From the NCBI GenBank assembly GCA_004299095.1, contig SCQQ01000122.1:1-36429 (forward strand): DNA of 36,429 nt, read 5' to 3'. A program made the translations under genes and the position numbers. The notes beneath the pieces were generated by a model. It was not told the origin of the DNA. It did not search any database and saw nothing but the letters and a program-made list of their open reading frames with translations. This document shows, in pieces, positions 6,447 to 35,830 of the stretch; positions within the stretch are counted from its first letter, which is position 1; every line of letters begins with the position of its first letter. The stretch is from Burkholderiaceae bacterium (GTDB lineage: Bacteria > Pseudomonadota > Gammaproteobacteria > Burkholderiales > Burkholderiaceae_C).

Positions 6447-6923
6447 TTATAGGTGCTCGAGAGTGACTTCTTTCTGCAAGCGCAGAATTTCCGGCGGCCA
6501 GGAGCTCTTGATATACGTGAGCACGGCGACGATCTCCTCACGCGACAAGGTGCCTCCGAACGCCGGCATGTCACTCGCGTAACCCGCCGGCGCCGTCCGT
6601 CCTGGCACGAGGCCATTTGTCACGATGTCGATCAGCACCGCGTCCGGGTGGTGCCAGGTGTGGCCGGTCTTGTCGTGTGGCGGCGCCGGCAGCCTGCCGT
6701 TGGCGAGGCGCTCGCGCCAGTTCGGTTGCCCCTGAAGCGCCGCGCCGTGGCAGGCAGCGCAATGGTTGGCGTAGATGACTTTTCCCCGTGCGACCAGGGC
6801 GCGGTTCGCGGGGCTGATAAACGCGGCGTCAGACGATCGCCCGGCGCCGTAAAGAAGGGCCGCGGCAACGGCACCCACGAGGGCGGCGCCGATACCGATG
6901 AAGCCCCACTTTCTGCTCAACAT
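6447..6923 (-). CDS. Membrane-anchored c-type cytochrome
   Basis: A 158-residue protein with an N-terminal hydrophobic anchor at about residues 6-26 (FIGIGAALVGAVAAALLYGAG) and one class I cytochrome c domain. The haem-binding CAACH motif is near residue 55, and the probable axial Met is in MPAFGGTLS near 126, at usual spacing. The domain would face the periplasm. It ends the series of minus-strand genes that includes the DsbD-like and multicopper-oxidase-like proteins, 141 bp after the DsbD-alpha-like gene, and is probably transcribed with them. Cytochrome c maturation needs reduced apocytochrome cysteines, which the neighbouring thiol reductase could supply; that link is inference. The start at 6923 immediately precedes the anchor. 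Confidence 0.85.
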   Translation of the reverse strand: MLSRKWGFIGIGAALVGAVAAALLYGAGRSSDAAFISPANRALVARGKVIYANHCAACHGAALQGQPNWRERLANGRLPAPPHDKTGHTWHHPDAVLIDIVTNGLVPGRTAPAGYASDMPAFGGTLSREEIVAVLTYIKSSWPPEILRLQKEVTLEHL

Positions 6924-7064
6924 TTGTGCGTGATAGTCATTATTTCTTCGGGCATCCCGGCTGCTCGGCGCCCTGGCTTTTTTGTTGCCGCAACCCAAGT
7001 CCGAACAAAAACGCGGGATGGCATGAGCTGTGTTTAGCGGCCCTGGTCAATCAAGCCGCGTGGC

Positions 7065-7574
7065 TCAGATTCTGTCAGCCGAAGCCGTGATGGTCGCCGG
7101 CGCCAGGCAGAGCCCCTTCGTGTTGCACGCCTGCACGTGTACCAGGACGCGGCTCGTCTGCGGATTGCCGAGGTTCGCGACCGCGATGGTGGCGCCGTCC
7201 TCGTAGACCAGAATGTCGGTGCCGTCGATGACGATGCCGCTGCTCTGGCCATGCGGGTAGGTCGCCTGCGCCGCGTGCCGCGCGCCGTCGCGCTCGATCC
7301 ACACCGTGGCCGCAATGAGGTTGCCGAGCGACGCCGGATTGGCGTTCACGTGCCAGCCCTTGTCGATATGAAGGGTGACGATGCCGGTATCTCCTTCCGT
7401 CGCGAGCGAAGCGGCGACATGCGCCGACGAATTCACCATCCCGCTCGCCGGGCTCGGAGCGTCCGCGGGTGGCGCGGAACTCGAAGCAAACCAGTTCCAG
7501 CCGGCAAACGCCACGGCCACCAAAAGCACGGCCGCGCCGAGCAACGTGATCTTGTACCAGGTACTGCTTTTCAT
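7065..7574 (-). CDS. Membrane-anchored DsbD-alpha-like thiol reductase domain
   Basis: A 169-residue protein with one N-terminal membrane anchor (about residues 8-29), a Pro/Ala-rich linker and a periplasmic immunoglobulin-like domain. The stretch GWHVNANPAS resembles the N-terminal domain of DsbD. The CNTKGLC segment near the C-terminus reproduces the CX5C spacing of the DsbD-alpha active-site cysteines (CADAGFC in E. coli), followed by a proline. This suggests that it passes electrons from the transmembrane protein next door to periplasmic substrates. Its ATG overlaps the stop of that gene (ATGA), so the two are coupled. In standard DsbD the alpha domain is the N-terminal part of a single polypeptide; here it is a separate, downstream gene. 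Confidence 0.8.
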   Translation of the reverse strand: MKSSTWYKITLLGAAVLLVAVAFAGWNWFASSSAPPADAPSPASGMVNSSAHVAASLATEGDTGIVTLHIDKGWHVNANPASLGNLIAATVWIERDGARHAAQATYPHGQSSGIVIDGTDILVYEDGATIAVANLGNPQTSRVLVHVQACNTKGLCLAPATITASADRI

Positions 7575-8746
7575 TTGTGACTCTCCCGTGATTCCAGCGT
7601 TTTGAGTGCGCTCACCAGGCTGCTGCTTGCGAAGAAGCCCGAGAATTCCTGTACTTTGCGGCCGTTGCGGTCGAGCAGCGCGACGAACGGCAGGCCGACG
7701 CCGCCGTACGAAGCGAGCAAGTGCTCGAGCGCCGGCTCGGGACGCGTCAAATCGGCCCGGAGCGCCACCACGCCGGAACGCGCAACGGCCTGAACGACCG
7801 CACTGTCCTCGTAAGTGGTCTTTTCGAGCACCTTGCAATTGATGCACCACTGCGCGGTGAACTCGACCATGGCCGGGCGGCCCAGTGCCGAGAGCGCTGC
7901 CACGCCATCCGGCCGCAGCGGCTGCCAGGCAATCGCACGGCTTGGCACGGCGGCATCGACGGCCAGCGCGAGCGCGGCGAGTCCCACGAATCCGGCGACG
8001 GCGCGCGACGCCCGCTCCGGCGTGCGCACGAAGCGGTACGCCGCCCACAGCAGCACGCCCGCGGAAAGGGCGGCCCACAAAGGCTGGATCCACGCCGTCG
8101 GGAGCACGCTTTGCAGAAAAAAGAGCGCCATGGCAAGCAGCAGCCAGCCGAAACTCTGGCGGATCGATTCCGTCCAGGCGCCCGCGTGCGGCAAGCGCTT
8201 GAGCAGCCCGGGCCGCAACATCAGCACGGCGTAGGGCAGCGCGAGGCCAGCACCGATCGACACGAAGATGGCGACGATGTTGGCGGTGGGCTGGGTGAGC
8301 GCGAAGACGAGCACGCCGCCCAGCAGCGGTCCGGTGCAGGGCGTCGAGAGCAGGGCGCACACCAAGCCTGAGAAAAACGGATCGAGAAACCGGCCGCCGC
8401 GCCAGGTCGCGAGCGCGCGAGGCACGACAGGGCCCCGGCCCAGAAAATTGGCTGCAGCAAGCGCCGCCATCAAGGCGCTCAAAATGATCAGCAGCAGGCG
8501 TGACTGGAACAGCACGCCCCACTGCCAATGCAGCAGCGCCGTCGCCAGACCGAGCGCCGTGAAAAACAGCATCGATCCCGCGGTGAAGAGCACCGCTGAC
8601 GCCGCGCGCGGCGTCAGCCGCTTGCCGGACGCGTTGAGTACCGCGCGCACCTTGAGCGGAATCGCCGGCAGCACGCACGGCGTCAGGTTCAAGAGCAGGC
8701 CGGCGCCCGCAGCAAGCAGGATCTGGAGGAAGAGCAGGGAAGTCAT
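7571..8746 (-). CDS. DsbD-like transmembrane reductase with C-terminal thioredoxin domain
   Basis: A 391-residue membrane protein carrying the beta and gamma parts of a DsbD-type reductase. The membrane half (residues 1-260) has several hydrophobic helices and the two membrane Cys motifs LTPCVLPAIP (Cys 24) and STPCTGPLLGG (about Cys 136). The C-terminal 120 residues form a thioredoxin domain with WCINCK. Such proteins take electrons from cytoplasmic thioredoxin across the inner membrane. The N-terminal alpha domain of DsbD is missing but is supplied by the next gene, with which it overlaps by 4 bp. It starts only 9 bp after the multicopper-oxidase-like gene, so they form one operon. The job is probably reduction of Cys residues in periplasmic copper or haem proteins. 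Confidence 0.88.
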   Translation of the reverse strand: MTSLLFLQILLAAGAGLLLNLTPCVLPAIPLKVRAVLNASGKRLTPRAASAVLFTAGSMLFFTALGLATALLHWQWGVLFQSRLLLIILSALMAALAAANFLGRGPVVPRALATWRGGRFLDPFFSGLVCALLSTPCTGPLLGGVLVFALTQPTANIVAIFVSIGAGLALPYAVLMLRPGLLKRLPHAGAWTESIRQSFGWLLLAMALFFLQSVLPTAWIQPLWAALSAGVLLWAAYRFVRTPERASRAVAGFVGLAALALAVDAAVPSRAIAWQPLRPDGVAALSALGRPAMVEFTAQWCINCKVLEKTTYEDSAVVQAVARSGVVALRADLTRPEPALEHLLASYGGVGLPFVALLDRNGRKVQEFSGFFASSSLVSALKTLESRESHK

Positions 8747-8755
8747 GGCGGCGCA

Positions 8756-10456
8756 TCACGCGAGGGCGCGTGCGGGTTTGACGCGATAGTCGCGCATCAG
8801 GCCGCTGGCCGCATGCTCGAGCATGTGGCACTGGTAAGCGTAGGTGCCCGCAAAGTCCTTGAAGCGCATGATGAGCCGCACGCGTTCATTCGGCATCAGC
8901 AGCACGGTGTCCTGCCAGCCTGGCTGGATGCGGCCGGCGTTCACGTCGCTGCCGGACGTGCCGCCGCTCCATCCCAGCACCTGGAACTGCAAACCGTGCA
9001 AATGGATCGCATGCGCCATCATCCCGTTGTTCTCGAACTCCCAGATTTCCGTGGTGTCGAGCGTCACGATCTCATCGCTCGCCACTTCGTTCATCTGCAT
9101 GCTGCGGCCGTTGAAGCCCCACCGCATGTGACCCATGGTGACGCGGAATTGGCGCGGCCTCTTGTGATTGACGGCGTCTTCCGCGCGCAGCCGGGCGACG
9201 GTGCTCAGGTGTCGGGGCAGTTCGAGCGTTCCGGCAGCCTTGCGCGTCACGTCGACCGTGAGAATCGGGAATTCGGCACCATCGGGCAGCGGCGCGCTGC
9301 CCATCATGCGGCCCATCAGCTCGCCCAGCGCGCCGCCTCCCATGCCGCCTCCCATCATGCCCATCGAACCCTTGAAAGCGCGGCTGATCAGCCTGTGTTC
9401 TGTTCCGATCGCGTCCTGACTGAAATCAGCCCAGAGTTCGACGCGCTGCCCGGGCGTGAGCATCACGAAATCCTTTTCCAGCGGCGCATCGAGCAGGCCG
9501 CCATCGGTGGCGATCACCGCGAGCGGCCGGCCGTCCTGCCAGGCGATTTTGTACGTGCGGGCGTTCGATGCATTCAGCACGCGCAGGCGATAGGCGTGCG
9601 TGGCGACTTCGAGGCGCGCGTCCGGCTGGCCGTTGACGCAGATGGTGTCGCCAAAGAACCCCATCATGCGCGTCATCATGCTGCCCATGCCGCCGGACAT
9701 CATGCCGTCGCCCATCATTCCCCGGCCACCCATCATCCCCTGGCCCATCATGCCGCCGCGCGGCGTGGGCGTCTGCGCGCCAGAGTTGCCGTCGGTCGCG
9801 GCACCGGGGCCGGTGCCGGGCAGGTAGAGCAGCCGGTTGCCATCGCCGAAACTACGATCCTGAATGACGACAGGCAGGTCGTATTCGCCGCGCGGCAGGG
9901 ACAAAGCGTCCTCCTCCTTGTCGCTGACGTTGAGCAAGCCAGCGAGGCCGAAATAGACCTGCTCGGGCGTGTGATCCGCGGCCATGGCGTGGTACCAGTA
10001 CGTGCCGGCGCGGTCGCGCACTTCGAACTCGTAGCGGTAGCGCTCGCCGGGCGCTGCCTCGTAGCGCGGCAGTCCCATCATGTCGGCCGGAACGTGCAGG
10101 CCGTGCCAGTTGATGATGCTCGGCTGATCGATCTTGTTGATGAAATCGATGCGCACCTTCTGGCCGCGCCGCAGGTGCAGGATGGGCCCGAGCCAGGCAC
10201 CGTTCCAGCTTTGCACGCTGGCTGGATCACCTTTCAACACGCGCGCCCGGTACGACCACGCGGGCGTTTTGGGCCCCGAGCGCAACGCGACGTCATGCGG
10301 GGCGGCCGTCAATTCGAGCGCCAGATCAGGTTCGAACGGGCTCTCTTGTCGCTCTGCCGCATGGGCCGCGGGCACACCGACCAAGGTCGCGGCCGAAGCC
10401 GCGCCGGCGTAGCACAGCACGTCGCGGCGCGTCGCGTAAAAATCATCCGCTTTCAT
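8756..10456 (-). CDS. Met-rich multicopper-oxidase-like protein with altered trinuclear site
   Basis: A 566-residue protein of the CopA/CueO-type multicopper oxidase superfamily. The N-terminus has a twin-arginine-like signal (TRRDVL followed by a hydrophobic stretch and AHA-A), indicating Tat export. Cupredoxin domains are recognisable, with Met-rich insertions at about 235-268 and 362-388 that probably bind Cu(I). Of the four copper-ligand motifs, HAIHLHG (482-488) is intact. The first reads NWHG with Asn116 for His, the second reads HAM (156-158) for HxH, and the fourth reads QCHMLEH (542-548) for HCHxxxH. Thus three trinuclear-cluster histidines are absent, while the type-1 ligands His482, Cys543 and His548 remain, with Leu553 at the usual axial Met position. 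Oxygen reduction therefore looks doubtful; copper binding or electron transfer is more likely. Confidence 0.85.
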   Translation of the reverse strand: MKADDFYATRRDVLCYAGAASAATLVGVPAAHAAERQESPFEPDLALELTAAPHDVALRSGPKTPAWSYRARVLKGDPASVQSWNGAWLGPILHLRRGQKVRIDFINKIDQPSIINWHGLHVPADMMGLPRYEAAPGERYRYEFEVRDRAGTYWYHAMAADHTPEQVYFGLAGLLNVSDKEEDALSLPRGEYDLPVVIQDRSFGDGNRLLYLPGTGPGAATDGNSGAQTPTPRGGMMGQGMMGGRGMMGDGMMSGGMGSMMTRMMGFFGDTICVNGQPDARLEVATHAYRLRVLNASNARTYKIAWQDGRPLAVIATDGGLLDAPLEKDFVMLTPGQRVELWADFSQDAIGTEHRLISRAFKGSMGMMGGGMGGGALGELMGRMMGSAPLPDGAEFPILTVDVTRKAAGTLELPRHLSTVARLRAEDAVNHKRPRQFRVTMGHMRWGFNGRSMQMNEVASDEIVTLDTTEIWEFENNGMMAHAIHLHGLQFQVLGWSGGTSGSDVNAGRIQPGWQDTVLLMPNERVRLIMRFKDFAGTYAYQCHMLEHAASGLMRDYRVKPARALA

Positions 10457-10536: not shown

Positions 10537-11151
10537 TCATCTCGGACGTCCGCGGCCTTCGTAAAAATAAGTGAAGGGCCTCGGGCCTTTCATGTAGCTG
10601 GTTTCGACTTGCGGCAGGTCAAAGCCCGCACGCTCGATCAGCGCTCGGATCGGTCGATCCAGGTGGCAGCCGCCCGCGAACTTCGACCAGAGCGGGGTCA
10701 AGCCGTGTTGCCAGCGCTGCACGGACTGCTCGGGTGCGAGGCCGTGCTCGACGAACAGCAGCTGTCCGCCCGGTTTGAGCACACGACGCATCTCGCCCAG
10801 CGCCCGTTCGACGTGCGCGATGCTGCATAGCGTCCACGTCGTGACCACCGTGTCGATGCTGTGGTCGTCCAGTGGAATGGCTTCGGCCGAGCCCGCGAGA
10901 AAAATCACTGGCGCCGCGGCCGTGTCCACTGCTCGCCGCGCGATGGCAATGAGTTGCCGCGATGGCTCCAGCGCGTGGATGTCGCGCACGGCCGTCGTGT
11001 AGAGCGGCAAATTGAGCCCGGTGCCGATGCCGATCTCCAGCACGTGGCCGTTGGCCATGCCGACCACGCGCTCGCGATACGGCAGCAGGCGTTCGCTTTT
11101 CATGGCCCAGCCGCAGAGGCGCGGCAGGACGATGTCGTCGTAGAGGCTCAT
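10537..11151 (-). CDS. Class I SAM-dependent methyltransferase
   Basis: A 204-residue protein with a Rossmann-type methyltransferase fold. Motif I is VLEIGIGTGLN (about residues 37-47), followed by the acidic end of strand 2 in IHALEPS, a segment GSAEAIPLDDHSID (motif II region) and LKPGGQLLFVEHG (post-motif III). The layout resembles small methyltransferases of the UbiE/METTL7-like type. The substrate cannot be told from the sequence. No signal peptide is present, so it acts in the cytosol. It sits between the 43-residue Met-rich peptide and the multicopper-oxidase-like gene with short gaps on the same strand, so it is probably co-transcribed with the copper operon, where its role is unexplained. 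Confidence 0.8.
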   Translation of the reverse strand: MSLYDDIVLPRLCGWAMKSERLLPYRERVVGMANGHVLEIGIGTGLNLPLYTTAVRDIHALEPSRQLIAIARRAVDTAAAPVIFLAGSAEAIPLDDHSIDTVVTTWTLCSIAHVERALGEMRRVLKPGGQLLFVEHGLAPEQSVQRWQHGLTPLWSKFAGGCHLDRPIRALIERAGFDLPQVETSYMKGPRPFTYFYEGRGRPR

Positions 11152-11319: not shown

Positions 11320-11778
11320 TTACTCCCGGGCATAGATGAAGGGCTCGCCCTTGCCGAACGCATGAACGACGAACGGGCCTTGCTTTTCCATGCCCGGTTC
11401 GTCCATTCCCGGTGCGCCGAGCGGCATGCCGGGCAGCGTGATCCCGGTGATCGCCGGGCGCTCGCGCAGCAAACGCCGGACGATGTCAACGGGCACGAGC
11501 CCGTCGACCACGTAACCGTCCACGAGCAGGGTGTGGCAGCCTTCCAGGTCGTGCGGCACGCCGTGCTCGCGCTGCACCCGGGCCAGGTCGGTGTCGATGG
11601 TCTTGACGTTGAAACCGTTCCGGTCGAGATACCGGGCGTAGCGGTTGCAACAGTCGCAGTTCGGGTTTTTGTAGAGCGTGGCCGAGATGGCGCGCGCCGC
11701 GCTGGCAGGCAGCGTGAAAACCGCAGCCGCCAGCGCCAGCGGCGCCAGCACCACGGTGCGTCTCACAGAATTGATCAT
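11320..11778 (-). CDS. DUF411 / CopG-like periplasmic copper-binding protein
   Basis: A 152-residue exported protein. The N-terminus has an Arg-containing n-region, a hydrophobic core (VVLAPLALAAAVFTL) and a signal peptidase site near ASA-AR. The mature part starts with LYKNPNCDCCNRYARYL, which carries the CxCC motif of DUF411 proteins. DUF411 members, including Vibrio cholerae CopG, are periplasmic copper proteins of copper-resistance loci. The C-terminal half contains GCHTLLVDGYVVDGLVP and a Met/Pro-rich stretch LPGMPLGAPGMDEPGMEKQG that resembles copper-binding tails. The start at 11778 puts the signal peptide at the N-terminus; an upstream in-frame codon at 11829 would mask it. Its position in the operon supports a copper role. 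Confidence 0.85.
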   Translation of the reverse strand: MINSVRRTVVLAPLALAAAVFTLPASAARAISATLYKNPNCDCCNRYARYLDRNGFNVKTIDTDLARVQREHGVPHDLEGCHTLLVDGYVVDGLVPVDIVRRLLRERPAITGITLPGMPLGAPGMDEPGMEKQGPFVVHAFGKGEPFIYARE

Positions 11779-26230: not shown

Positions 26231-29200
26231 ATGAATCAAATTGCAGATGCGGACGTCGCGTTGACCGCGGAGGCATTGGAACATCTCCGGAATCGCTTGC
26301 TGGACTTGACCGGGCGCAACCGCCTGCTCAACTTCCACCACCCGAAGAAGAGCAGCCTCCGCGTCATCGATGAATTGCCGGACCAGATCGTCTCGACATT
26401 GCTCGCCGGTGAGGAGATGCGATTTGGAGCCATACCGGAGCCGACTGAAGATGAGTTGGTTAGCGCCGGCTATCTGAGACGTGATGGTCAAACGGGGACG
26501 CTCATCCGGTTGCGTGGCGATCCAAGCGCCAAAGAATGGGCAGAGCGCCTGGGGCACGTAACGAGCTACGAGGTTCCGCACGCGGCCGACGACAAAAACG
26601 CGAATAAGCACGCGGACAAGGTGATCCAGACGCTGTTCTACCCTTTTGAGTTGGAGGCTCGGCTCAAGGCACTCAGTCAGGCCAGCGAATCGGCCGTTCA
26701 AGAGATGGGTACTAACATCCTATATCTCGCGGTTGGCTTTCTTGAGTGGTATGAAAGCAAAGACAGCGAGCTGCAGCACATCGCACCGCTGATGCTCGTG
26801 CCGGTCGCACTCCACAAAGGACGTTTAAATCCAGAAACTCGCGCGTATGAATACTCCATAACTTATTCAGGTGAGGATCTCATTCCGAACCTGTCGCTGC
26901 GCGAGAAATTACGCGTTGATTTCGGCATGGCGTTACCAGACCTAGACGAAAGCACTATACCGGAGGACTACTTCCTTCAGATCAATGAACTGATCGAGCG
27001 CTCCGAGCCACGCTGGTGTGTGCATCGATACATCTCTTTGGCTTTGTTCAACTTCACGAAGCTCCTGATGTATCTCGATCTCGATCCGAACAATTGGCCG
27101 GCGGAATGCAACGTCGCCAATCATCCAGTCGTGTCGCAAATCCTGTCGAAGCTTGGTTCCGCCGTCATGCCAGCGGACTCGTCATCAAGAAATTTTGGGT
27201 TCGGCGAGGAATATGCGATTGATAGAATTGAAACTATTCATACAAACTATCCACTGATTGACGACGCAGATAGCTCCCAGCACAGCGCGCTCATTGATGC
27301 AGTGGACGGCAAGAACTTGGTGATTGAAGGACCGCCTGGAACTGGCAAGTCCCAGACGATCACCAACTTGATTGCGGCCGCCATCGCGCAAGGGAAAACG
27401 GTGCTGTTCGTGGCGGAGAAACTCGCCGCACTGGAAGTTGTCTGGAGCCGTTTGGATTTTGCGGGGCTTGGTGAATTCTGCTTGGAGTTGCATAGCCATA
27501 AAGCACAAAAGCGGAAATTGCTCGAAGAGCTTAATGAGCGAATGATCAAGCATGGACAGTATTGCAACCCACAGGATTTCCAAGCTGACGTTACACGCTA
27601 CGAAGAGTTGAAGATCGAGCTGGCGGGCTACGCTGAAAAGATGAATCGGCGGTGGAAACACACTGGCAAGACCTTGCACGATGTTTTCGCAGCCGCAACC
27701 CGATACCGCAACGCGATCAGCGTGAGTCCAGAGGTTGTTCGCCCAGACAACTGTACCGGCAAGAGTTACGATCCCGCTGCTCAGCGGCGCGCCAAGGATC
27801 GCGCTCACGCGTACCAAAGCGTCTATCAAGTCGTCGCTCAGCAGTTGGGCGAAGGGGCAGCACTGCAATCCCATCCGTGGTTCGGTGTTTCCAATGGCGG
27901 TCTGCAAATATTCGATACCGATCGCGTTGTCGAATCCCTCGGTGCTTGGCAAGAGTCACTGCAAAAACTCGCGGAACAACGGCAGATTCTCGCGGCTACG
28001 ATCGGTTGCGATGGTGCTGCGATACCGGAGGATGTCAGTGGCTTGCGGTCGCTTCTGACAGAGCTACAGCGCGTTCCCACGTTGCGCGGCGATGAGATTC
28101 TTGAGGCATTGCCGAAGCTACGAGGCAAGGGGTTTAAAGAGGCGTCGCATCAACGCGAGTTGTTCGAAGAGATACAGCGCGTGTCGGGCGCCATGGCACA
28201 GGTGGTGGATGTCGACCTGCTTCGCGATTCGAGTATTGGGGCGCGCATCGATTCGGCTAGCAAAAACCTGAGTGAACTTGTCGGTTCGGATGTGACGCTT
28301 GCCCAGTTGACCGAAGCGATAGGAAGACTTGCGTCCGTCAGCGAGGATCTTGAAGCATTACAACAGCCGCTGCGTGGATTGCGGACTGCGCTTGGAGATG
28401 CGGCCAAGAAGTATCTGACATTGAACGCATCGGGTTTGCTTGAGTGCAAGAAGGCGATCGAGCTGCTAGCCAGTCTGGATCTCAACTACTGGGAATACAG
28501 AAGTGAGCTATTCGGCAATGATGAACTTGACAATCTCCTGCATCAGTTGTGCAAAGAAGTTGACGATCTGCACGGGGTCGAAGACAAGCTAAACCTCACA
28601 TTCGCCATCAAAGAAGTGATGGACGAGGGTGAACTTCGTGCGATTAGCGACGCGCTTGCCTCCGGTGGCAGGTTGCGGTGGTTCAAGAGCGGGTGGCGAA
28701 GCGCGCGAAAACGGCTACTGAGTCATGCGGCAAATTCGCGCGTGCGATTCACCGCCATGAAGGTGCTGTTGGGTGACGCGATCACGCTCGCTGCCAAGCG
28801 GTCAGTGTTGCAGTCGAACAAAGCGTACAAGGAGGGGCTTGGAAAGCTTTTCCAAGGACAGGAAACGGACTTGGATGCGCTGAAGGCTTTGCGCGCCTGG
28901 TACAAGTCGGTGCGGCAAACGTACGGAGCCGGGTTCGGGCGCCGCGCGGTCTTGGGCGATGCCATCCTGAATTTCCCGGCGTCCAGTGCCGGTGCAGTCC
29001 GCGCGTTGGCGCAACGCCAAACCCCACAACAGTTATCCGATTTGCTGGCGACGTTAAACGACCTAAAGGCGGTGTTCACGCCGGCAGCGGGCATTCAGTC
29101 GAACGATACGTTGCTTATTGGCGACGGTGGTGCCGTTCCGGACCTCCTTGTGCGCGCGCATGATGCCATGCGCGAGTGCAGTCCTTTGGCAGACGACGAC

Positions 29201-31708
29201 GGGCGTTCGATTGCTGATTTGCGCGCACAGGCACGTGAGCTTGCGTCGCTACATGCCAATATTCGAAGCTGGAATGACGCAGATCTCGATAACCGAATGT
29301 TCGGCGGTCGGCTCGGACTTGATCCCTTGGCGAATGCGGGTAACGAGCAAGGCATGTCAGCCTTGGACCATACGCTTCGCCTCGCGGCTTACTGTGATCG
29401 GGAGGTGCGAAACCATACGTTGATTGGCTATATATATCGCACACCGGCGGCAGCGACGTTTAAAAAATTGTCGGACTGCGCATCATCGTTGCACGCGGCG
29501 ATTGACGCGGAAGCAACGGCGCGGGAAGCCTACGCGAAATTGGTCACCCTGGATTTAGAGGCCTGGAGGTCAAGCGCGAACAGCGCCTTAAGTAGCCTGA
29601 TCGCAAGGAATCAGCTTGCGCTGAATGATCCGGCGAGTCTGCAGAATTGGCTCGATTACATACGCGTCCGAGGTCAACTGGCCGCATCTGGTTTCACATG
29701 CGTCGCAGCCGCAGTTGAGGAATCGATGCTTCCCATCGATCAGGTGGAAGACGCATGTCTGGCAGGCGCCTTTGATGTGCTGGCGAGACAAGCACTGAAA
29801 GAAGATGACAAGCTGGCACGTTTTTCGGGGAAATCCCACGACGTCCTGTGTGAGCAATTTGCCAAGTACGACAACGCGCTGAAGCAACTTCAGCGCCGAA
29901 AGATAGCCTGGGCAGCTGACCAGACCGATCCGCCGACGGGATCGATGGGTGGACGCGTAAGCGATCTCACGGAGCTGGCGCTCTTGGAGCACGAATGCAG
30001 CAAGAAGAAGCGGCATATCCCGATTCGCCAGCTGTTGAAGCGCGCAGGACGTGCGCTGTTGGCCCTGAAGCCTTGCTTCATGATGAGTCCGATGTCGGTT
30101 GCGCAATACCTTGCGCCGGGCGACGTCAGCTTCGATCTGGTAGTGATGGACGAGGCATCGCAAATCAAACCGCAGGATGCCATTGGCGCAGTCGCACGAG
30201 GTGGGCAGCTCGTCGTCGTGGGTGATCCGAACCAACTGCCGCCAACCAGCTTCTTCGACCGACTGGAAGATGATGACGTCGAGGATCCGACGGGCGCAGA
30301 GGAAGCGGAAAGCATTTTGGACGCGGTGTGGCCTCTATTTCAGCGACGCCTTCTGCGTTGGCACTACCGATCACAACACCCGGACCTGATTGCTTTTTCT
30401 AACGCGTTTTTCTACAAGGATTTGGTTTTGTTTCCGTCGCCGTACAAAGAGTCGGACAAGTACGGTATTCACTACCACCGGTTGTCCCGTGGTTGCTTTG
30501 TAGGCCGCCGCAACATGGAGGAAGCGCGAGTCATCGCCAATGCCGTGCAGCAGCACTTTCGGGTCAGCCCGAAAGACACACTTGGTGTTGCCACCATGAA
30601 TGCTGAGCAGCGGTTGCAAATCGAAGCGGCGATCGAATCACTGGCGAAAGATGACCCGGCTTTTCAGAAATCTCTGGGTGAGGATGGCGAGCGTCGCGAA
30701 TCACTGTTCATCAAGAACCTGGAGAATGTTCAAGGCGACGAACGAGATGTCATATTTGTTTCCATGACCTATGGCCCCAGTGAGCCCGGCGGCAAGGTAA
30801 TGCAGCGGTTCGGCCCGATCAATACAGAAACGGGATGGCGACGCCTAAACGTGTTGTTTACACGTGCAAGAAAGCGAATGCACGTTTTCAGTTCTATGGG
30901 CTCCGCCGACGTTCTGGTTGGTGCGTCATCCAAACGCGGAGTTAAGGCATTGCATGACTTCCTGAGTTACTGCGAGACGGGCATCTTGTCCCAGACAGAT
31001 GGCGTCACAGGCAAGGAGCCGGACAGTGACTTTGAAGTCGCGGTAATGGATGCATTGCGGACGCGAGGGTTTGATTGCGTGCCACAAGTGGGTGTCGCCG
31101 GCTTCTTCATTGACGTGGCGGTCATCGACCCCGGAAAGCCCGGTCACTACCTTATGGGCATTGAGTGCGACGGCGCAACCTACCATTCGGCGAAGTCGAC
31201 GCGAGATCGCGATCGCCTGCGCCAATCCATTCTGGAACGGTTGGGTTGGCGTATCCGCCGAATATGGTCAACGGATTGGTACAAGAACCCGTCAGCGGCC
31301 TTCGCCCCAATGCTGAAAGAGCTCGACGAGCTGAAGTCCGCGATACCACCTGTGAGTGAAGGCGAGCCGGAATATGCAGGCCCAAGACTAACTGTCGAGG
31401 AAGCGAGCGCCAACACCGATGACAAACAGGCGGACGCGATCACCCACGAGGGAGGTGACCTGCAAGATATGTTGACCCAGTTTGACAATGAGGTCATACG
31501 CAAGCAGGTACCCGATACGCCCGAGAGCAAACGATTGCTTCGGCCAGCAATGTTGGAGGCCTTAGCCGGGTTTCGACCGACCAACAAAGTTGAGTTCCTA
31601 GAGCAGGTACCACGCTACCTGCGAGAGGGAACGGAAGTCGCTGAAGGGAAGTATTTGGAGCAGGTTTTCGAAATCATCAACGCTTCCTTGGAAGAGCCGT
31701 ATGTCTGA
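26231..31708 (+). CDS. hhe: DUF4011-SF1 helicase-Vsr-like nuclease (Hhe-type defence protein)
   Basis: An 1825-residue single-chain protein. Residues 1-330 look like DUF4011 (LRNRLLDLTGRNRLLNFHHP at the start). A split SF1 (Upf1-like) helicase follows: Walker A GPPGTGKSQ at about 367-375, a long helical insertion of roughly 900 residues, Walker B VVMDEASQIKP near 1304-1314, GDPNQLPPTSFF, WHYRSQHPDLI and RLNVLFTRARKRMHV (motif VI). From about 1598 a Vsr/REase-like nuclease has DFEVAVMDAL, FFIDVAV, GIECDGATYH and RDRDRLRQSILERLGWRI-RIWS. This DUF4011-helicase-Vsr order is the architecture reported as the Hhe antiphage system. The gene is more A/T-rich than its neighbours (25 of 60 bases G/C at 28501-28560 against 38 of 60 at 24301-24360), indicating transfer. 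Confidence 0.85.
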   Translation: MNQIADADVALTAEALEHLRNRLLDLTGRNRLLNFHHPKKSSLRVIDELPDQIVSTLLAGEEMRFGAIPEPTEDELVSAGYLRRDGQTGTLIRLRGDPSAKEWAERLGHVTSYEVPHAADDKNANKHADKVIQTLFYPFELEARLKALSQASESAVQEMGTNILYLAVGFLEWYESKDSELQHIAPLMLVPVALHKGRLNPETRAYEYSITYSGEDLIPNLSLREKLRVDFGMALPDLDESTIPEDYFLQINELIERSEPRWCVHRYISLALFNFTKLLMYLDLDPNNWPAECNVANHPVVSQILSKLGSAVMPADSSSRNFGFGEEYAIDRIETIHTNYPLIDDADSSQHSALIDAVDGKNLVIEGPPGTGKSQTITNLIAAAIAQGKTVLFVAEKLAALEVVWSRLDFAGLGEFCLELHSHKAQKRKLLEELNERMIKHGQYCNPQDFQADVTRYEELKIELAGYAEKMNRRWKHTGKTLHDVFAAATRYRNAISVSPEVVRPDNCTGKSYDPAAQRRAKDRAHAYQSVYQVVAQQLGEGAALQSHPWFGVSNGGLQIFDTDRVVESLGAWQESLQKLAEQRQILAATIGCDGAAIPEDVSGLRSLLTELQRVPTLRGDEILEALPKLRGKGFKEASHQRELFEEIQRVSGAMAQVVDVDLLRDSSIGARIDSASKNLSELVGSDVTLAQLTEAIGRLASVSEDLEALQQPLRGLRTALGDAAKKYLTLNASGLLECKKAIELLASLDLNYWEYRSELFGNDELDNLLHQLCKEVDDLHGVEDKLNLTFAIKEVMDEGELRAISDALASGGRLRWFKSGWRSARKRLLSHAANSRVRFTAMKVLLGDAITLAAKRSVLQSNKAYKEGLGKLFQGQETDLDALKALRAWYKSVRQTYGAGFGRRAVLGDAILNFPASSAGAVRALAQRQTPQQLSDLLATLNDLKAVFTPAAGIQSNDTLLIGDGGAVPDLLVRAHDAMRECSPLADDDGRSIADLRAQARELASLHANIRSWNDADLDNRMFGGRLGLDPLANAGNEQGMSALDHTLRLAAYCDREVRNHTLIGYIYRTPAAATFKKLSDCASSLHAAIDAEATAREAYAKLVTLDLEAWRSSANSALSSLIARNQLALNDPASLQNWLDYIRVRGQLAASGFTCVAAAVEESMLPIDQVEDACLAGAFDVLARQALKEDDKLARFSGKSHDVLCEQFAKYDNALKQLQRRKIAWAADQTDPPTGSMGGRVSDLTELALLEHECSKKKRHIPIRQLLKRAGRALLALKPCFMMSPMSVAQYLAPGDVSFDLVVMDEASQIKPQDAIGAVARGGQLVVVGDPNQLPPTSFFDRLEDDDVEDPTGAEEAESILDAVWPLFQRRLLRWHYRSQHPDLIAFSNAFFYKDLVLFPSPYKESDKYGIHYHRLSRGCFVGRRNMEEARVIANAVQQHFRVSPKDTLGVATMNAEQRLQIEAAIESLAKDDPAFQKSLGEDGERRESLFIKNLENVQGDERDVIFVSMTYGPSEPGGKVMQRFGPINTETGWRRLNVLFTRARKRMHVFSSMGSADVLVGASSKRGVKALHDFLSYCETGILSQTDGVTGKEPDSDFEVAVMDALRTRGFDCVPQVGVAGFFIDVAVIDPGKPGHYLMGIECDGATYHSAKSTRDRDRLRQSILERLGWRIRRIWSTDWYKNPSAAFAPMLKELDELKSAIPPVSEGEPEYAGPRLTVEEASANTDDKQADAITHEGGDLQDMLTQFDNEVIRKQVPDTPESKRLLRPAMLEALAGFRPTNKVEFLEQVPRYLREGTEVAEGKYLEQVFEIINASLEEPYV

Positions 31709-32562: not shown

Positions 32563-34182
32563 CTATTTCCGCCCAGCTCCCCCCGCCGTCACCTTGCGCG
32601 CCTGCAGCGCTCGGATGCGAGTGACGGCGGCGTGGTTGGCGACGGCCTTGTCCATCATGGCCGCGACGTCCGCCTTCAGCTTGGTACGGGAAGCGCCGTC
32701 CAGATAGACCATGTGGCCGGACGGGTAGAACGTCGTAGCGAGGTTGGCGCGCACCGCCGCGTCCGCGACGGGCATGGTCTGGAGATCGAGCACGGTCTGG
32801 AAGAAAGGCGTGACGAAGTCGTAGTAGCCGTTGGCCGACAGCACCTTCAGGTCGACGTTCAGGCTCATGGTGGCTGCGAGATCGCCCGCGGTGTACAGCA
32901 CCACGTTGCCCTGGTCGTCGATGCCCTTTTGCGCGCCGGTCGGGTCGGTGTGGTGGAAATCCCAGTGCTCGAACGCCTGGTCGTTCAGGTCGGTGAAAGC
33001 CGAGTCGGAGGTGAACTTCAGCTCGTCGTTCAGGTAGACGTTCCACATGGTCGTGTAGACGCCAGAGACCGCCGTCATGGTTGGGTCGTTGCCGCCCGAA
33101 TTGGGCGAAATGTGTGCTGCGATGCCGGTGTCCACGCCGGTGACGCGGCCGTCGTAGGCGCCGATCGCCAGGCCCCGGTCTTGCAGCAACCCGACGAGAA
33201 ACAGCGTGTGGCCCTGGCTGTCGCCCGCCGCGATCTGCAGGTTCCAGGCCATCAGCGTCTGCTGAGCTATGCCGGTGTATTGGCTGAGTGTGCCCAGCGT
33301 GGCGGCCGGCACCTTAGGAAACGCACCCAGCGCGGCCATGAAGTCTCCGAGGGCAAAAGCACGCGCCTTGGTCATGAACGCCGGCAATTGCTTCGGCGCG
33401 GGCTGCACGCCCAGCTTCTTGTGGTACCAGGCGTCGGCCGCGGCGGTCGGCAGGGCGCCCACGGGGTTGCCCGCCTGCGTGTAGTCGAGGATGGACGATT
33501 GCAGCGTGATGCCGTTCAGGTCCACGCCCGCCTCATGCAGCACGTAGGAGAGCACGGCGCTGCGCGCGGTGCCGTACGACTCGCCATACAGGAATTTGGG
33601 CGAATTCCAGCGGTCGTATTCGGTCAGGTAGCGCTGGATGAACTGCGCGAGAGACGCCGCGTCCTGGTCCACGCCCCAGAAGTCCTGGTTCTTCCAGGGC
33701 GCGATGGCGGCCGAATAGCCGGTGCCCACGGGGTTGATGAAAACCAGGTCGCTGCGGTCGAGCAGGCTGTCGGTGTTGTCTTCCAGCGAGTAGGGCGCAG
33801 GTGGCGTGAAGTCGGGCATCGCGGTCTTGATGCGCCGCGGCGCGAACGAGCCCAGCAGCACGAACACCGACGATGAACCCGGTCCGCCGTTGTAGAAGAA
33901 AGTGACCGGCCGTTCGGACGGTTGGCTGCCATCCAGAGTGAAGGCAACGTAGAAGATGCTCGCCGCGGGCTTGGAGCTACTCGCGTCCACCGCCACCAGG
34001 TGCCCTGCGCAGGCCGTGTACGCGATCGTGCGCCCGTTCAGGCGCAGCGTGTGATGCGTGATGGCGGCTGTTTCACTGGTATCGGTCACCGAGTCGTCGG
34101 GACCGTTGCCATACGGCGTGGGATCGAAATACGGCTGATCCGCGGCGGCGCCCGCCGGAGCTGTGCTTGTCTTGTGGGCCAT
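32563..34182 (-). CDS. Serine carboxypeptidase-like peptidase (family S10)
   Basis: A 539-residue alpha/beta-hydrolase peptidase. The oxyanion region is FFYNGGPGSSS (about residues 93-103), the nucleophile motif is GESYGT (about 198-203), the acid is in SANGYYDFVTP and the catalytic His in YPSGHMVYLD near the C-terminus, giving a complete Ser-Asp-His triad in S10 order. Family members remove C-terminal residues from peptides, generally at acid pH. No classical signal peptide is visible (N-terminus MAHKTSTAPAGAAADQ), although family members are usually exported. A GGGAGA ribosome-binding site precedes the ATG. It follows the S53 peptidase gene on the same strand after 82 bp, so the two are probably co-transcribed and may act together on peptides. 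Confidence 0.9.
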   Translation of the reverse strand: MAHKTSTAPAGAAADQPYFDPTPYGNGPDDSVTDTSETAAITHHTLRLNGRTIAYTACAGHLVAVDASSSKPAASIFYVAFTLDGSQPSERPVTFFYNGGPGSSSVFVLLGSFAPRRIKTAMPDFTPPAPYSLEDNTDSLLDRSDLVFINPVGTGYSAAIAPWKNQDFWGVDQDAASLAQFIQRYLTEYDRWNSPKFLYGESYGTARSAVLSYVLHEAGVDLNGITLQSSILDYTQAGNPVGALPTAAADAWYHKKLGVQPAPKQLPAFMTKARAFALGDFMAALGAFPKVPAATLGTLSQYTGIAQQTLMAWNLQIAAGDSQGHTLFLVGLLQDRGLAIGAYDGRVTGVDTGIAAHISPNSGGNDPTMTAVSGVYTTMWNVYLNDELKFTSDSAFTDLNDQAFEHWDFHHTDPTGAQKGIDDQGNVVLYTAGDLAATMSLNVDLKVLSANGYYDFVTPFFQTVLDLQTMPVADAAVRANLATTFYPSGHMVYLDGASRTKLKADVAAMMDKAVANHAAVTRIRALQARKVTAGGAGRK

Positions 34183-34264
34183 GGTGTGTCTCCCAACGCG
34201 GCCGGAGCGCGCGCATCGTGCCGCGCACCGCCACCCCGTGAGAGCCTAACCCCGCTTCAATGGT

Positions 34265-35830
34265 TCACGCTGCGCTGCCCGCAAAAAGGGCCGCCAGCGC
34301 ACGCCCTTTGGGACTGCCGAGGCCGGTGCAGGCATCCCATCCGGGCGTGGCGAAGAAGCCACCGTTGTTGCCCTGCGTGATGTCGTGAAAAGCGGCCGGG
34401 TGCGCGTACAGGCGCGCGTTGAGGTAGCCCACGGGCTGCGGCCGCGACGCGTTGATGCGCGCCAGCAATCCCGCCCAGAGCGGCGCCACCGCGCTGGTGC
34501 CGCCCACGATGCTGGCCGTTCCGTCCACCAGCACCCGGTAGCCGGTGGCGGGATCGGCGTTGCCGGCCACGTCGGGGACGCCGCGCCGTGCCAGCGCACT
34601 CACGCCCGCCGGCGTGCGAACCGTGAGCGCCTGCTGCCAGGCGGGCAGAGGGAAAAAAGTGCTCACGCCGCCGCCGCTGGCGCCGCCCTCGGCACCGTCG
34701 TTCCAGACTGTTTCCCGCGCTACCACGCCGTCTTTCGCTTGTAACCGCGTGCCGCCACAGGCCAGTGCGTGCAGGCTGGAGGCCGGGAAATCGACGTAGT
34801 CGCCGCCGGCCTGGCCGCCGCTCGCCCCGCTATCGCCCGCCGCCGCGCAGACGGTGATGCCCAGCACGGCCGCCGCGCCCAGGGCGTCGTCGAAGGTCCG
34901 CAGCGCCTGCGGCGTCCAGGTGGCTTCGGGAGCGCCCCAACTAATCGAGATCACGGAAGGGCGATTCACGTCATCATGCACGGCGGCGTTCAACGCCTGC
35001 AGGAAGCCGGCGTCGGTGTTGGCGCCGAAATACAGCACCAGGTGGGCGCCGGGCGCCAGCGCGCCGGCGATTTCCACGTCCAGCATGACCTCGCCGTCGG
35101 GGCCATTGGGGTCGCCCGTGGGTGCGTGCGGCGAGCCGTCGGCGGACACCACCGTCACGGTCGGCATGGGCACGCCAAGATCGGAGAAATACTGGCGCGC
35201 ATCGCTCGCGCCGTAGCCGCCGCCCAGCTCGATCAGGGCGACGCATTGGCCCGCGCCGGATCCGGCCGGAAAGTCGTACAGGGCCCCCACCTCTTGGGGC
35301 AGGTAGCCTTGCTGCTGCGCTTGCGGGGCGACGTGGAAGGGCGGCCGGAAGCGGAAGTACGCGCGGGCTTGTGGGCGGTCGTCCAGCCCGAGCACCGCCG
35401 TCACCACGCCCTGCAAGCCGGCCGGTATGCGCAGCGGGCCGTCGCAGCCGCGATGCGTCTCGGCCCCGTGCCCGTAGCGCTGCAGCGTGACATGGAAAGC
35501 CGCGTTGAACCGCGCCGCGGTACCAGCGAGCAGCACGGTCCCGGCGGCAGTGTCCTCGCGTTGCACCGTGAGACTATGGCGCCGGGCAAAGCGAGCCACT
35601 TTGGCGAAGTCGTCGGGCGCGGCGCCGAATTGCTCGGCGAATTCCTGCCGGGTAAGCGGCGCCACGGCGGCATCTACCGCCATGCGGTCGGCTGCCGCAT
35701 GCAACGCAGGCCCGGCGCCGTGACGCAACACGACGATCACCTGCAGCGGCGTGTCGGCATCGAGCTCGCCCAGCGGCGTAGCGCCCGCGAGTGGAGCGCG
35801 CTCACTGCCTGGAAGCGGAACATGGGCCAT
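34265..35830 (-). CDS. Sedolisin-type serine-carboxyl peptidase (family S53)
   Basis: A 521-residue pro-kumamolisin-like enzyme. Residues 1-170 form the activation prodomain (VIVVLRHGAG, LTRQEFAEQFGA, FNAAFHVTLQRY). The catalytic domain has GEVMLDVEIAGALAPGA with the Glu and Asp of the triad (E..xD spacing), AAAGDSGASGG with the oxyanion Asp, and GGTSAVAPLWAGLLARIN with the nucleophilic Ser. The C-terminal DITQGNNGGFF and GWDACTGLGSP form the calcium site. These are acid endopeptidases that activate themselves by removing the prodomain. There is no clear N-terminal secretion signal, as in some sedolisins. A strong GGAGG ribosome-binding site lies six bases before the ATG at 35830. It is the first gene of a pair with the S10 peptidase. 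Confidence 0.93.
   Translation of the reverse strand: MAHVPLPGSERAPLAGATPLGELDADTPLQVIVVLRHGAGPALHAAADRMAVDAAVAPLTRQEFAEQFGAAPDDFAKVARFARRHSLTVQREDTAAGTVLLAGTAARFNAAFHVTLQRYGHGAETHRGCDGPLRIPAGLQGVVTAVLGLDDRPQARAYFRFRPPFHVAPQAQQQGYLPQEVGALYDFPAGSGAGQCVALIELGGGYGASDARQYFSDLGVPMPTVTVVSADGSPHAPTGDPNGPDGEVMLDVEIAGALAPGAHLVLYFGANTDAGFLQALNAAVHDDVNRPSVISISWGAPEATWTPQALRTFDDALGAAAVLGITVCAAAGDSGASGGQAGGDYVDFPASSLHALACGGTRLQAKDGVVARETVWNDGAEGGASGGGVSTFFPLPAWQQALTVRTPAGVSALARRGVPDVAGNADPATGYRVLVDGTASIVGGTSAVAPLWAGLLARINASRPQPVGYLNARLYAHPAAFHDITQGNNGGFFATPGWDACTGLGSPKGRALAALFAGSAA

Follow-up and report, generated by a model that had tools for sequence, protein, structure and literature searches.

A conserved clade of multicopper-oxidase-fold proteins that appears to have lost the oxygen-reducing copper centre and kept the type-1 site

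Multicopper oxidases are defined by a type-1 copper coupled to an oxygen-reducing copper cluster. Here we describe a gene from a Burkholderiaceae bacterium (GenBank assembly GCA_004299095.1) whose product has the fold of these enzymes and lacks part of that cluster. It lies in positions 1 to 36,429 of contig SCQQ01000122.1, a stretch of 36,429 nucleotides that we call the window. The open reading frame that a sequence-only reading of this DNA had placed at 8756-10456 is real and runs on the minus strand. Its product of 566 amino acids contains Cu-oxidase_3, Cu-oxidase and Cu-oxidase_2 domains, all three above their Pfam cut-offs, which places it in the multicopper oxidase superfamily. The AlphaFold2 model has a mean predicted local distance difference test score (pLDDT) of 84.9 and a predicted template modelling score (pTM) of 0.84, and the protein carries a TRRDVL motif, which we take to be a twin-arginine-like signal. 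The features of the gene are as follows, with residues placed by alignment to CueO from E. coli K-12, our reference for numbering:

8756..10456, minus strand: cluster-less multicopper-oxidase-fold gene, 566 amino acids (open reading frame, Pfam and AlphaFold2 model)
10109..10111, minus strand: Asn116 (AAC), at the place of CueO His101
10103..10105, minus strand: His118, kept, at the place of CueO His103
10076..10078, minus strand: Met127, at the place of CueO Asp112
9989..9991, minus strand: His156, kept, at the place of CueO His141
9983..9985, minus strand: Met158 (ATG), at the place of CueO His143
9662..9754, minus strand: first methionine-rich insert, residues about 235-265, pLDDT below 50 in part; active relatives have it too
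9296..9367, minus strand: second methionine-rich insert, residues about 364-387, pLDDT below 50 in part; active relatives have it too
8996..9013, minus strand: HAIHLH, residues 482-487, with the type-1 ligand His482 and with His485 and His487 kept
8831..8833, minus strand: Gln542 (CAG), at the place of CueO His499
8798..8830, minus strand: type-1 loop with Cys543, His544, His548, Ala549 (Glu506 place), Ala550 (Asp507 place) and the axial Leu553

Direct reading bears out the motifs described earlier, namely SIINWHG (N116), WYHAM (M158), an intact MMAHAIHLHG and YQCHMLEHAASGLM (Q542), and the codons claimed for Asn116 (AAC), Met158 (ATG) and Gln542 (CAG) agree with the DNA. We take CueO His101 to be a type-2 ligand and His143 and His499 to be two of the three type-3-beta ligands; CueO His103 and His141 and the place of His544 in the window protein presumably make up the type-3-alpha set (His118, His156 and His544 here). 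In this assignment, the joint loss takes in a type-2 ligand, two of the three ligands of the type-3-beta set and both acids implicated in O2 reduction, and the whole type-3-alpha set is kept together with H485 and H487. The window protein thus has five of the eight histidines that form the type-2/type-3 cluster of a functional multicopper oxidase, and Met127 and Ala549 stand where CueO has the acids Asp112 and Glu506. Judged from sequence, the type-1 site has its His, Cys and His (H482, C543 and H548), with L553 in the axial position, at the place of CueO Met510, where either Met or Leu is expected. By alignment, 8/12 copper-ligand residues of CueO remain. Four losses add to those listed in the sequence-only reading: D112 (Met127), H145 (Ala160), E506 (Ala549) and D507 (Ala550). 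The motif alignment therefore supports its claim that the normal trinuclear cluster has probably been lost while the type-1 set, with an axial Leu, survives. As to the acids, a passage in PMC2944330 invokes mutagenesis of Asp112 and Glu506 in CueO to argue that both take part in O2 reduction, and calculations described there support CotA Glu498, the equivalent of Glu506, as a proton channel.

Whether the substitutions recur across a clade was the check that the earlier reading had proposed, and they do, in eight sequences. We scanned one genome per species (GTDB) and kept the best 80 of 188 related stretches. Six of these 80 share the pattern; they come from Castellaniella caeni, two further Castellaniella, Candidimonas nitroreducens, a Burkholderiaceae metagenome-assembled genome (MAG) and a Rhodanobacteraceae MAG. 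In the last there is also another full-length copy (L129), as well as a partial one (L141) that likewise reads QCH...AA. The clade comprises 8 full-length proteins in 7 genomes, that is, the window protein and seven others from six other genomes. These were compared with 7 close active relatives and 86 further homologues, giving 93 non-clade proteins that were chosen for their similarity to the window protein, near-copies among them. The tally excludes SufI, the partial copy L141, an antisense frame of L149 and the broken homologue L004, which is present as two pieces.

At the His101 place, Asn is found in all eight clade proteins and His in 93/93 others; at the His143 place, seven of the eight have Met and one (L037) has Phe, and again 93/93 others have His; at the His499 place, Gln is present in 8/8 and His in 90/90 (3 gaps). 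The Asp112 place holds Met (6) or Leu (2) in the clade and Asp in all 93 others. Ala occupies each of the three remaining places in all eight clade members; the other proteins have His (84), Asp (6), Leu, Met or Glu (1 each) at the His145 place, Glu (89), Gly (1, in L149) or a gap (3) at the Glu506 place, and Asp (85), Asn (4), Glu (1) or a gap (3) at the Asp507 place. All eight clade members keep the type-1 ligands and the remaining five cluster histidines unchanged. Glu133 is a clade-specific gain (8/8 vs 0/93), and given gains of this kind the pocket may have been rebuilt.

Because seven related proteins have lost the same parts, the gene was probably repurposed rather than damaged. Sequencing error or a frameshift is ruled out by the recurrence of the pattern, which is found in 8 full-length sequences from 7 genomes. 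Close homologues with all eight histidines, which had been named as a sign of such an error, do exist (L003 and L116-L121), but they form a separate sister clade. Two features noted in the earlier reading do not count as evidence for a new function, being shared with these active sisters: the axial Leu is present in 7/7 of them, and they carry 12-13 and 6-8 Met in the two stretches where the window protein has 13 and 7. Judging by this comparison, axial Leu and methionine-rich inserts both predate the loss of the cluster.

Could the protein still work as an O2-reducing oxidase, its copper bound by Asn, Met, Gln or further side chains? Such side chains are able in principle to bind copper, and five cluster histidines are left. 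But the losses extend to both acids implicated in O2 reduction, Met158 is replaced by Phe in L037, and His162 is not conserved, so that we give this explanation hardly any credence. His162 as a compensating ligand is ruled out: it is His in only 6/8 clade members and is also present in 7/7 active sisters.

A maximum-likelihood tree of 98 rows was computed with the seven trait columns masked and the partial L005, L076 and L087 also left out; it was built by a quick method with no bootstrap and has some long branches elsewhere. A single branch separates the 8 clade members from the rest of the tree, with support of 99 in the Shimodaira-Hasegawa-like approximate likelihood ratio test (SH-aLRT). 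Their sister is the active group of L003 and L116-L121 (SH-aLRT 99), and the branch joining the two has support of 100. The label of cluster loss requires 1 change on this tree, and 0 of 500 shuffles came as low. Pairwise dN/dS, the ratio of nonsynonymous to synonymous substitution rates by the Nei-Gojobori method (NG86), is 0.126-0.262 across all 28 clade pairs, 25 of which are saturated (dS >1); the two least saturated pairs (dS 0.53 and 0.81) give 0.164 and 0.135. The sequences thus indicate that the oxygen-reducing machinery was dismantled once and that the rest of the protein has been maintained. A pseudogene is ruled out for the window gene by its intact frame and dN/dS of 0.13-0.26. Among the window protein's 17 histidines, those at former-ligand places are invariant in the clade in 7/7 cases vs 3/10 for the others (Fisher p 0.006; as the sequences are related, this value is indicative only). 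The twin-arginine pattern lies further in in L129 (TRRDFL), and none was found in L037, where an in-frame signal is seemingly absent.

The pattern is rare in the genomes searched. Within the genus, 14 of 29 genomes match the window protein at E <= 0.001, its own included; the best other match (L003, 61% identical) is of the active type, the rest are at most 58% identical, and the motifs read for L004, L005, L006 and L009 have His at the places covered. The family-level and later wide searches score few candidates per genome and may miss paralogues. At the family level, 12/399 genomes match at E <= 1e-60, and the pattern occurs in the window genome only, with motifs read at all 13 other places. 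For the order, 2/399 match at E <= 1e-100, and for the class, 1/369 at E <= 1e-120, which is the window's own. The pattern was counted in 3/10 Castellaniella. Three of 233 Rhodanobacteraceae genomes match at E <= 1e-60 and one of them (G793) has the pattern; in the other loci, L198 has all four motifs intact and the partial L199 has three intact. Viral contigs gave 219 stretches that matched a pattern, none of which encoded a relative, and 10 plasmid records match at E <= 1e-60, each 45-47% identical to the window protein. In the open-access literature, full-text searches turned up no three-domain oxidase that is naturally type-1-only, though this does not prove novelty.

Three of the relatives met in these searches merit a separate remark. 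The second match in the order (L149, genome G929) is an oxidase with all eight cluster histidines, an axial Leu and Gly at the CueO Glu506 place; the acid can possibly go before the cluster. A homologue in the window's own genus (L004/L114, genome G006) is broken into two frames. The active sister oxidase (L003, L116, L117, L118 and L119) is nearly identical across different genera, with end branches of 0-0.03, which suggests recent horizontal spread of a copper island.

The genes that surround the window gene, all on the same strand, are these:

11320..11778, minus strand: CopG-like DUF411 protein with a CxCC motif (PF04214, E 2.6e-20), two genes upstream of the oxidase-like gene
10537..11151, minus strand: class-I methyltransferase (PF08241), between the DUF411 and oxidase-like genes
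7571..8746, minus strand: DsbD-like membrane domain and thioredoxin domain (PF02683, PF13899), 9 bases downstream of the oxidase-like gene
7065..7574, minus strand: DsbD N-terminal-domain-like protein (C-x5-C; PF11412, E 2.4e-7, 31.3 bits vs a cut-off of 25), its start overlapping the preceding stop (ATGA)
6447..6923, minus strand: cytochrome c with a probable N-terminal membrane anchor (PF13442, PF00034); first ATG at 6923, frame open to a TTG at 6998

Five other clade loci (L032-L036) show the order oxidase-like gene, DsbD, DsbD N-terminal-domain protein, DUF411, and DUF411 with a split DsbD lies near 6/8 clade copies. Cytochrome c homologues occur near copA or the oxidase-like gene in 6/7 clade genomes, the window's included. 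In L158, the active-type relative has a methyltransferase homologue (56%) about 1 kb upstream. DsbD homologues with 55-58% identity are found in 7 family genomes that have no close match to the oxidase-like protein. The neighbours are general parts of copper islands, none of them specific to the clade protein. A dedicated DsbD or cytochrome c partner is weakened as a candidate because both are found in copper islands without the clade protein. Upstream of the oxidase-like gene in L032 (4768-5808), and at the equivalent places in L033-L036, lie two small conserved Cys/Met-bearing proteins, one apparently exported and the other apparently a membrane protein; five sequences scanned gave no Pfam match at E <= 0.1, and the pair was not found beside the window gene. 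At 7654-8203 of L033, in a MAG, the DsbD-like frame beside the clade gene is interrupted.

Farther along the window, 26231-31708 (plus strand) encodes a DUF4011 helicase of 1825 amino acids with a C-terminal MTES_1575 nuclease domain, which matches the Hhe anti-phage defence model strongly, at 1647.5 bits. The region has a GC content of 0.54-0.57 against 0.646 for the whole window and lies just downstream of alanyl-tRNA synthetase; it is perhaps a defence gene gained by transfer. At 32563-35830 (minus strand), a serine-carboxypeptidase-like gene adjoins a kumamolisin-like protease gene.

The host genomes differ in what other oxidases they encode. In the window genome (99.54% complete, 122 contigs), the window gene is the one multicopper-oxidase gene detected by PF07732. 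The six other clade genomes have 3 to 8 PF07732 matches each, some being two matches to one gene, and these include a CopA-like protein, which has 592-633 amino acids and intact motifs in five of the six and is spread over more than one frame in the Rhodanobacteraceae genome. NarG scores above its cut-off in 5/7 clade genomes. A passage in PMC11046850 reports Castellaniella from nitrate- and metal-contaminated subsurface and a MAG, FW021bin21, without narGHJI, with which the lack of a NarG match in G790 agrees. CopG-like proteins are described in part of PMC7558416 as contributing to copper resistance in anaerobic conditions and as binding a copper cluster via CxCC. This link, together with NarG, is compatible with a possible role without oxygen.

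What might such a protein do? The sequence-only reading had proposed a copper carrier, chaperone or electron-transfer protein; the copper-island context makes this inference plausible and speaks for no one of the three in particular. We favor a periplasmic CueO-type paralogue whose O2-reducing centre was dismantled once and whose type-1 centre was kept, acting in electron transfer or copper handling, and would give this reading an even chance of being right. The protein would be exported by the twin-arginine translocation (Tat) pathway and would bind the type-1 copper and possibly a second copper at the alpha site; water would no longer be made from O2. The type-1 site could accept single electrons from Cu(I) bound to the methionine-rich segments, or from another donor, and pass them to a protein partner, such as cytochrome c or another periplasmic carrier, rather than to O2. 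Alternatively, the protein may simply bind copper and hand it on. We place electron transfer slightly ahead of pure copper carriage because the complete type-1 set is invariant, including its Cys-His link to H544.

A copper sponge or metallochaperone takes the second of these ideas further: fold and methionine-rich segments would bind Cu(I)/Cu(II) and deliver it to CopA, CopG or efflux, with the type-1 site as a store. The 13 and 7 Met of the two stretches agree with this, as does the position of the gene among copper-resistance genes, with a CopA homologue in 6/6 other genomes (motifs intact in 5). The active sisters, however, are equally Met-rich, so the stretches do not mark the change, and a sponge has no obvious need for an invariant His482/Cys543/His548. 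We consider it a possible explanation, if on the doubtful side. A more specific form of the electron-transfer reading is a type-1-only oxidase that passes electrons from Cu(I) via its blue-copper site to a periplasmic protein, for example the neighbouring cytochrome c; it would serve O2-free copper detoxification in nitrate-reducing, metal-exposed bacteria, with ordinary CopA, where present, serving under oxic conditions. In this full form we regard the proposal as unlikely.

Several observations weigh against the electron-transfer or copper-handling reading. Neither Rhodanobacteraceae copy has DsbD or CopG as a neighbour, and a search of that genome gave no cytochrome c match at E <= 1e-15. 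Cytochrome c homologues (44-50% identity) occur in 5/5 active-sister genomes searched, DUF411 and cytochrome c are also found near active relatives, and in 4/6 loci examined a canonical CopA has a DsbD homologue no more than about 4 kb away. Two of the seven clade genomes offer no NarG support for an anaerobic role. The five remaining cluster histidines could hold an unusual reactive site, and the part of PMC2944330 that reports the calculations doubts that the Asp112 equivalent donates protons and suggests that its role is structural.

A conserved clade in which cluster and nearby acids are selectively erased and the type-1 site is kept shows that the two halves of a multicopper oxidase are separable in evolution, and it supplies natural cluster-less proteins in which to study type-1 copper in this fold. 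It is also a caution against reading oxidase activity into annotations such as 'multicopper oxidase' or 'laccase'. If electrons do go elsewhere than to O2, the clade bears on periplasmic Cu(I) oxidation without oxygen.

Among known systems, E. coli CueO differs in having H101, H143, H499, D112 and E506, whose equivalents the window protein lacks, and an axial Met510 in place of Leu. The window protein scores 238.8 bits against the CueO model NF008205 (cut-off 525) and 104.1 bits against the CopA model TIGR01480 (cut-off 478.95). In the Sulfurimonas multicopper oxidase 8z59 and Aquifex McoA 6syy, unlike in the window protein, the aligned sequences hold His at the three places.

Copper nitrite reductases are two-domain proteins of the cupredoxin fold in which type-1 copper is wired to a second site. 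Another candidate is a remodelled mononuclear enzyme, with one copper at the type-3-alpha site (H118, H156 and H544) wired to the type-1 site via Cys543-His544 and a substrate other than O2. The three alpha ligands and H485/H487 are invariant in 8/8, and the clade-specific gains, notably Glu133, suggest a rebuilt pocket. Yet none of the lost positions has acquired a new His. In nitrite reductases, we take the His that precedes the type-1 Cys to be a second-site ligand; the window protein has Gln542 before Cys543. The nitrite site presumably corresponds to the beta set of multicopper oxidases. On that assumption the equivalent histidines are among those lost, which makes a nitrite-reductase-like site unlikely; as a candidate it is weakened by a kept His set that is not the presumed equivalent of the nitrite site. 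The window protein scores 22.9 bits against TIGR02376 (cut-off 296.3). Overall, a mononuclear enzyme seems improbable to us.

SufI/FtsP resembles the window protein in having the multicopper-oxidase fold and a lost cluster, with Met where CueO has D112 and Ala where it has E506, and might suggest a copper-free scaffold of the same kind. It differs in that its type-1 ligands are gone, whereas the window protein keeps three type-1 ligands and five cluster histidines. A passage in PMC2661564 describes SufI as lacking all but two copper ligands. Because SufI keeps two and the window protein 8/12, and given copper neighbours and a score of 170.1 bits against the SufI/FtsP model NF008135 (cut-off 581), we think a scaffold very improbable.

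The active Leu-axial sisters (L003 and L116-L121) come from genomes of the window's own family. They are 57-60% identical to the window protein over nearly the full length and share its methionine-rich inserts and axial Leu; they differ in having all eight cluster histidines and the Asp112 and Glu506 equivalents in 7/7.
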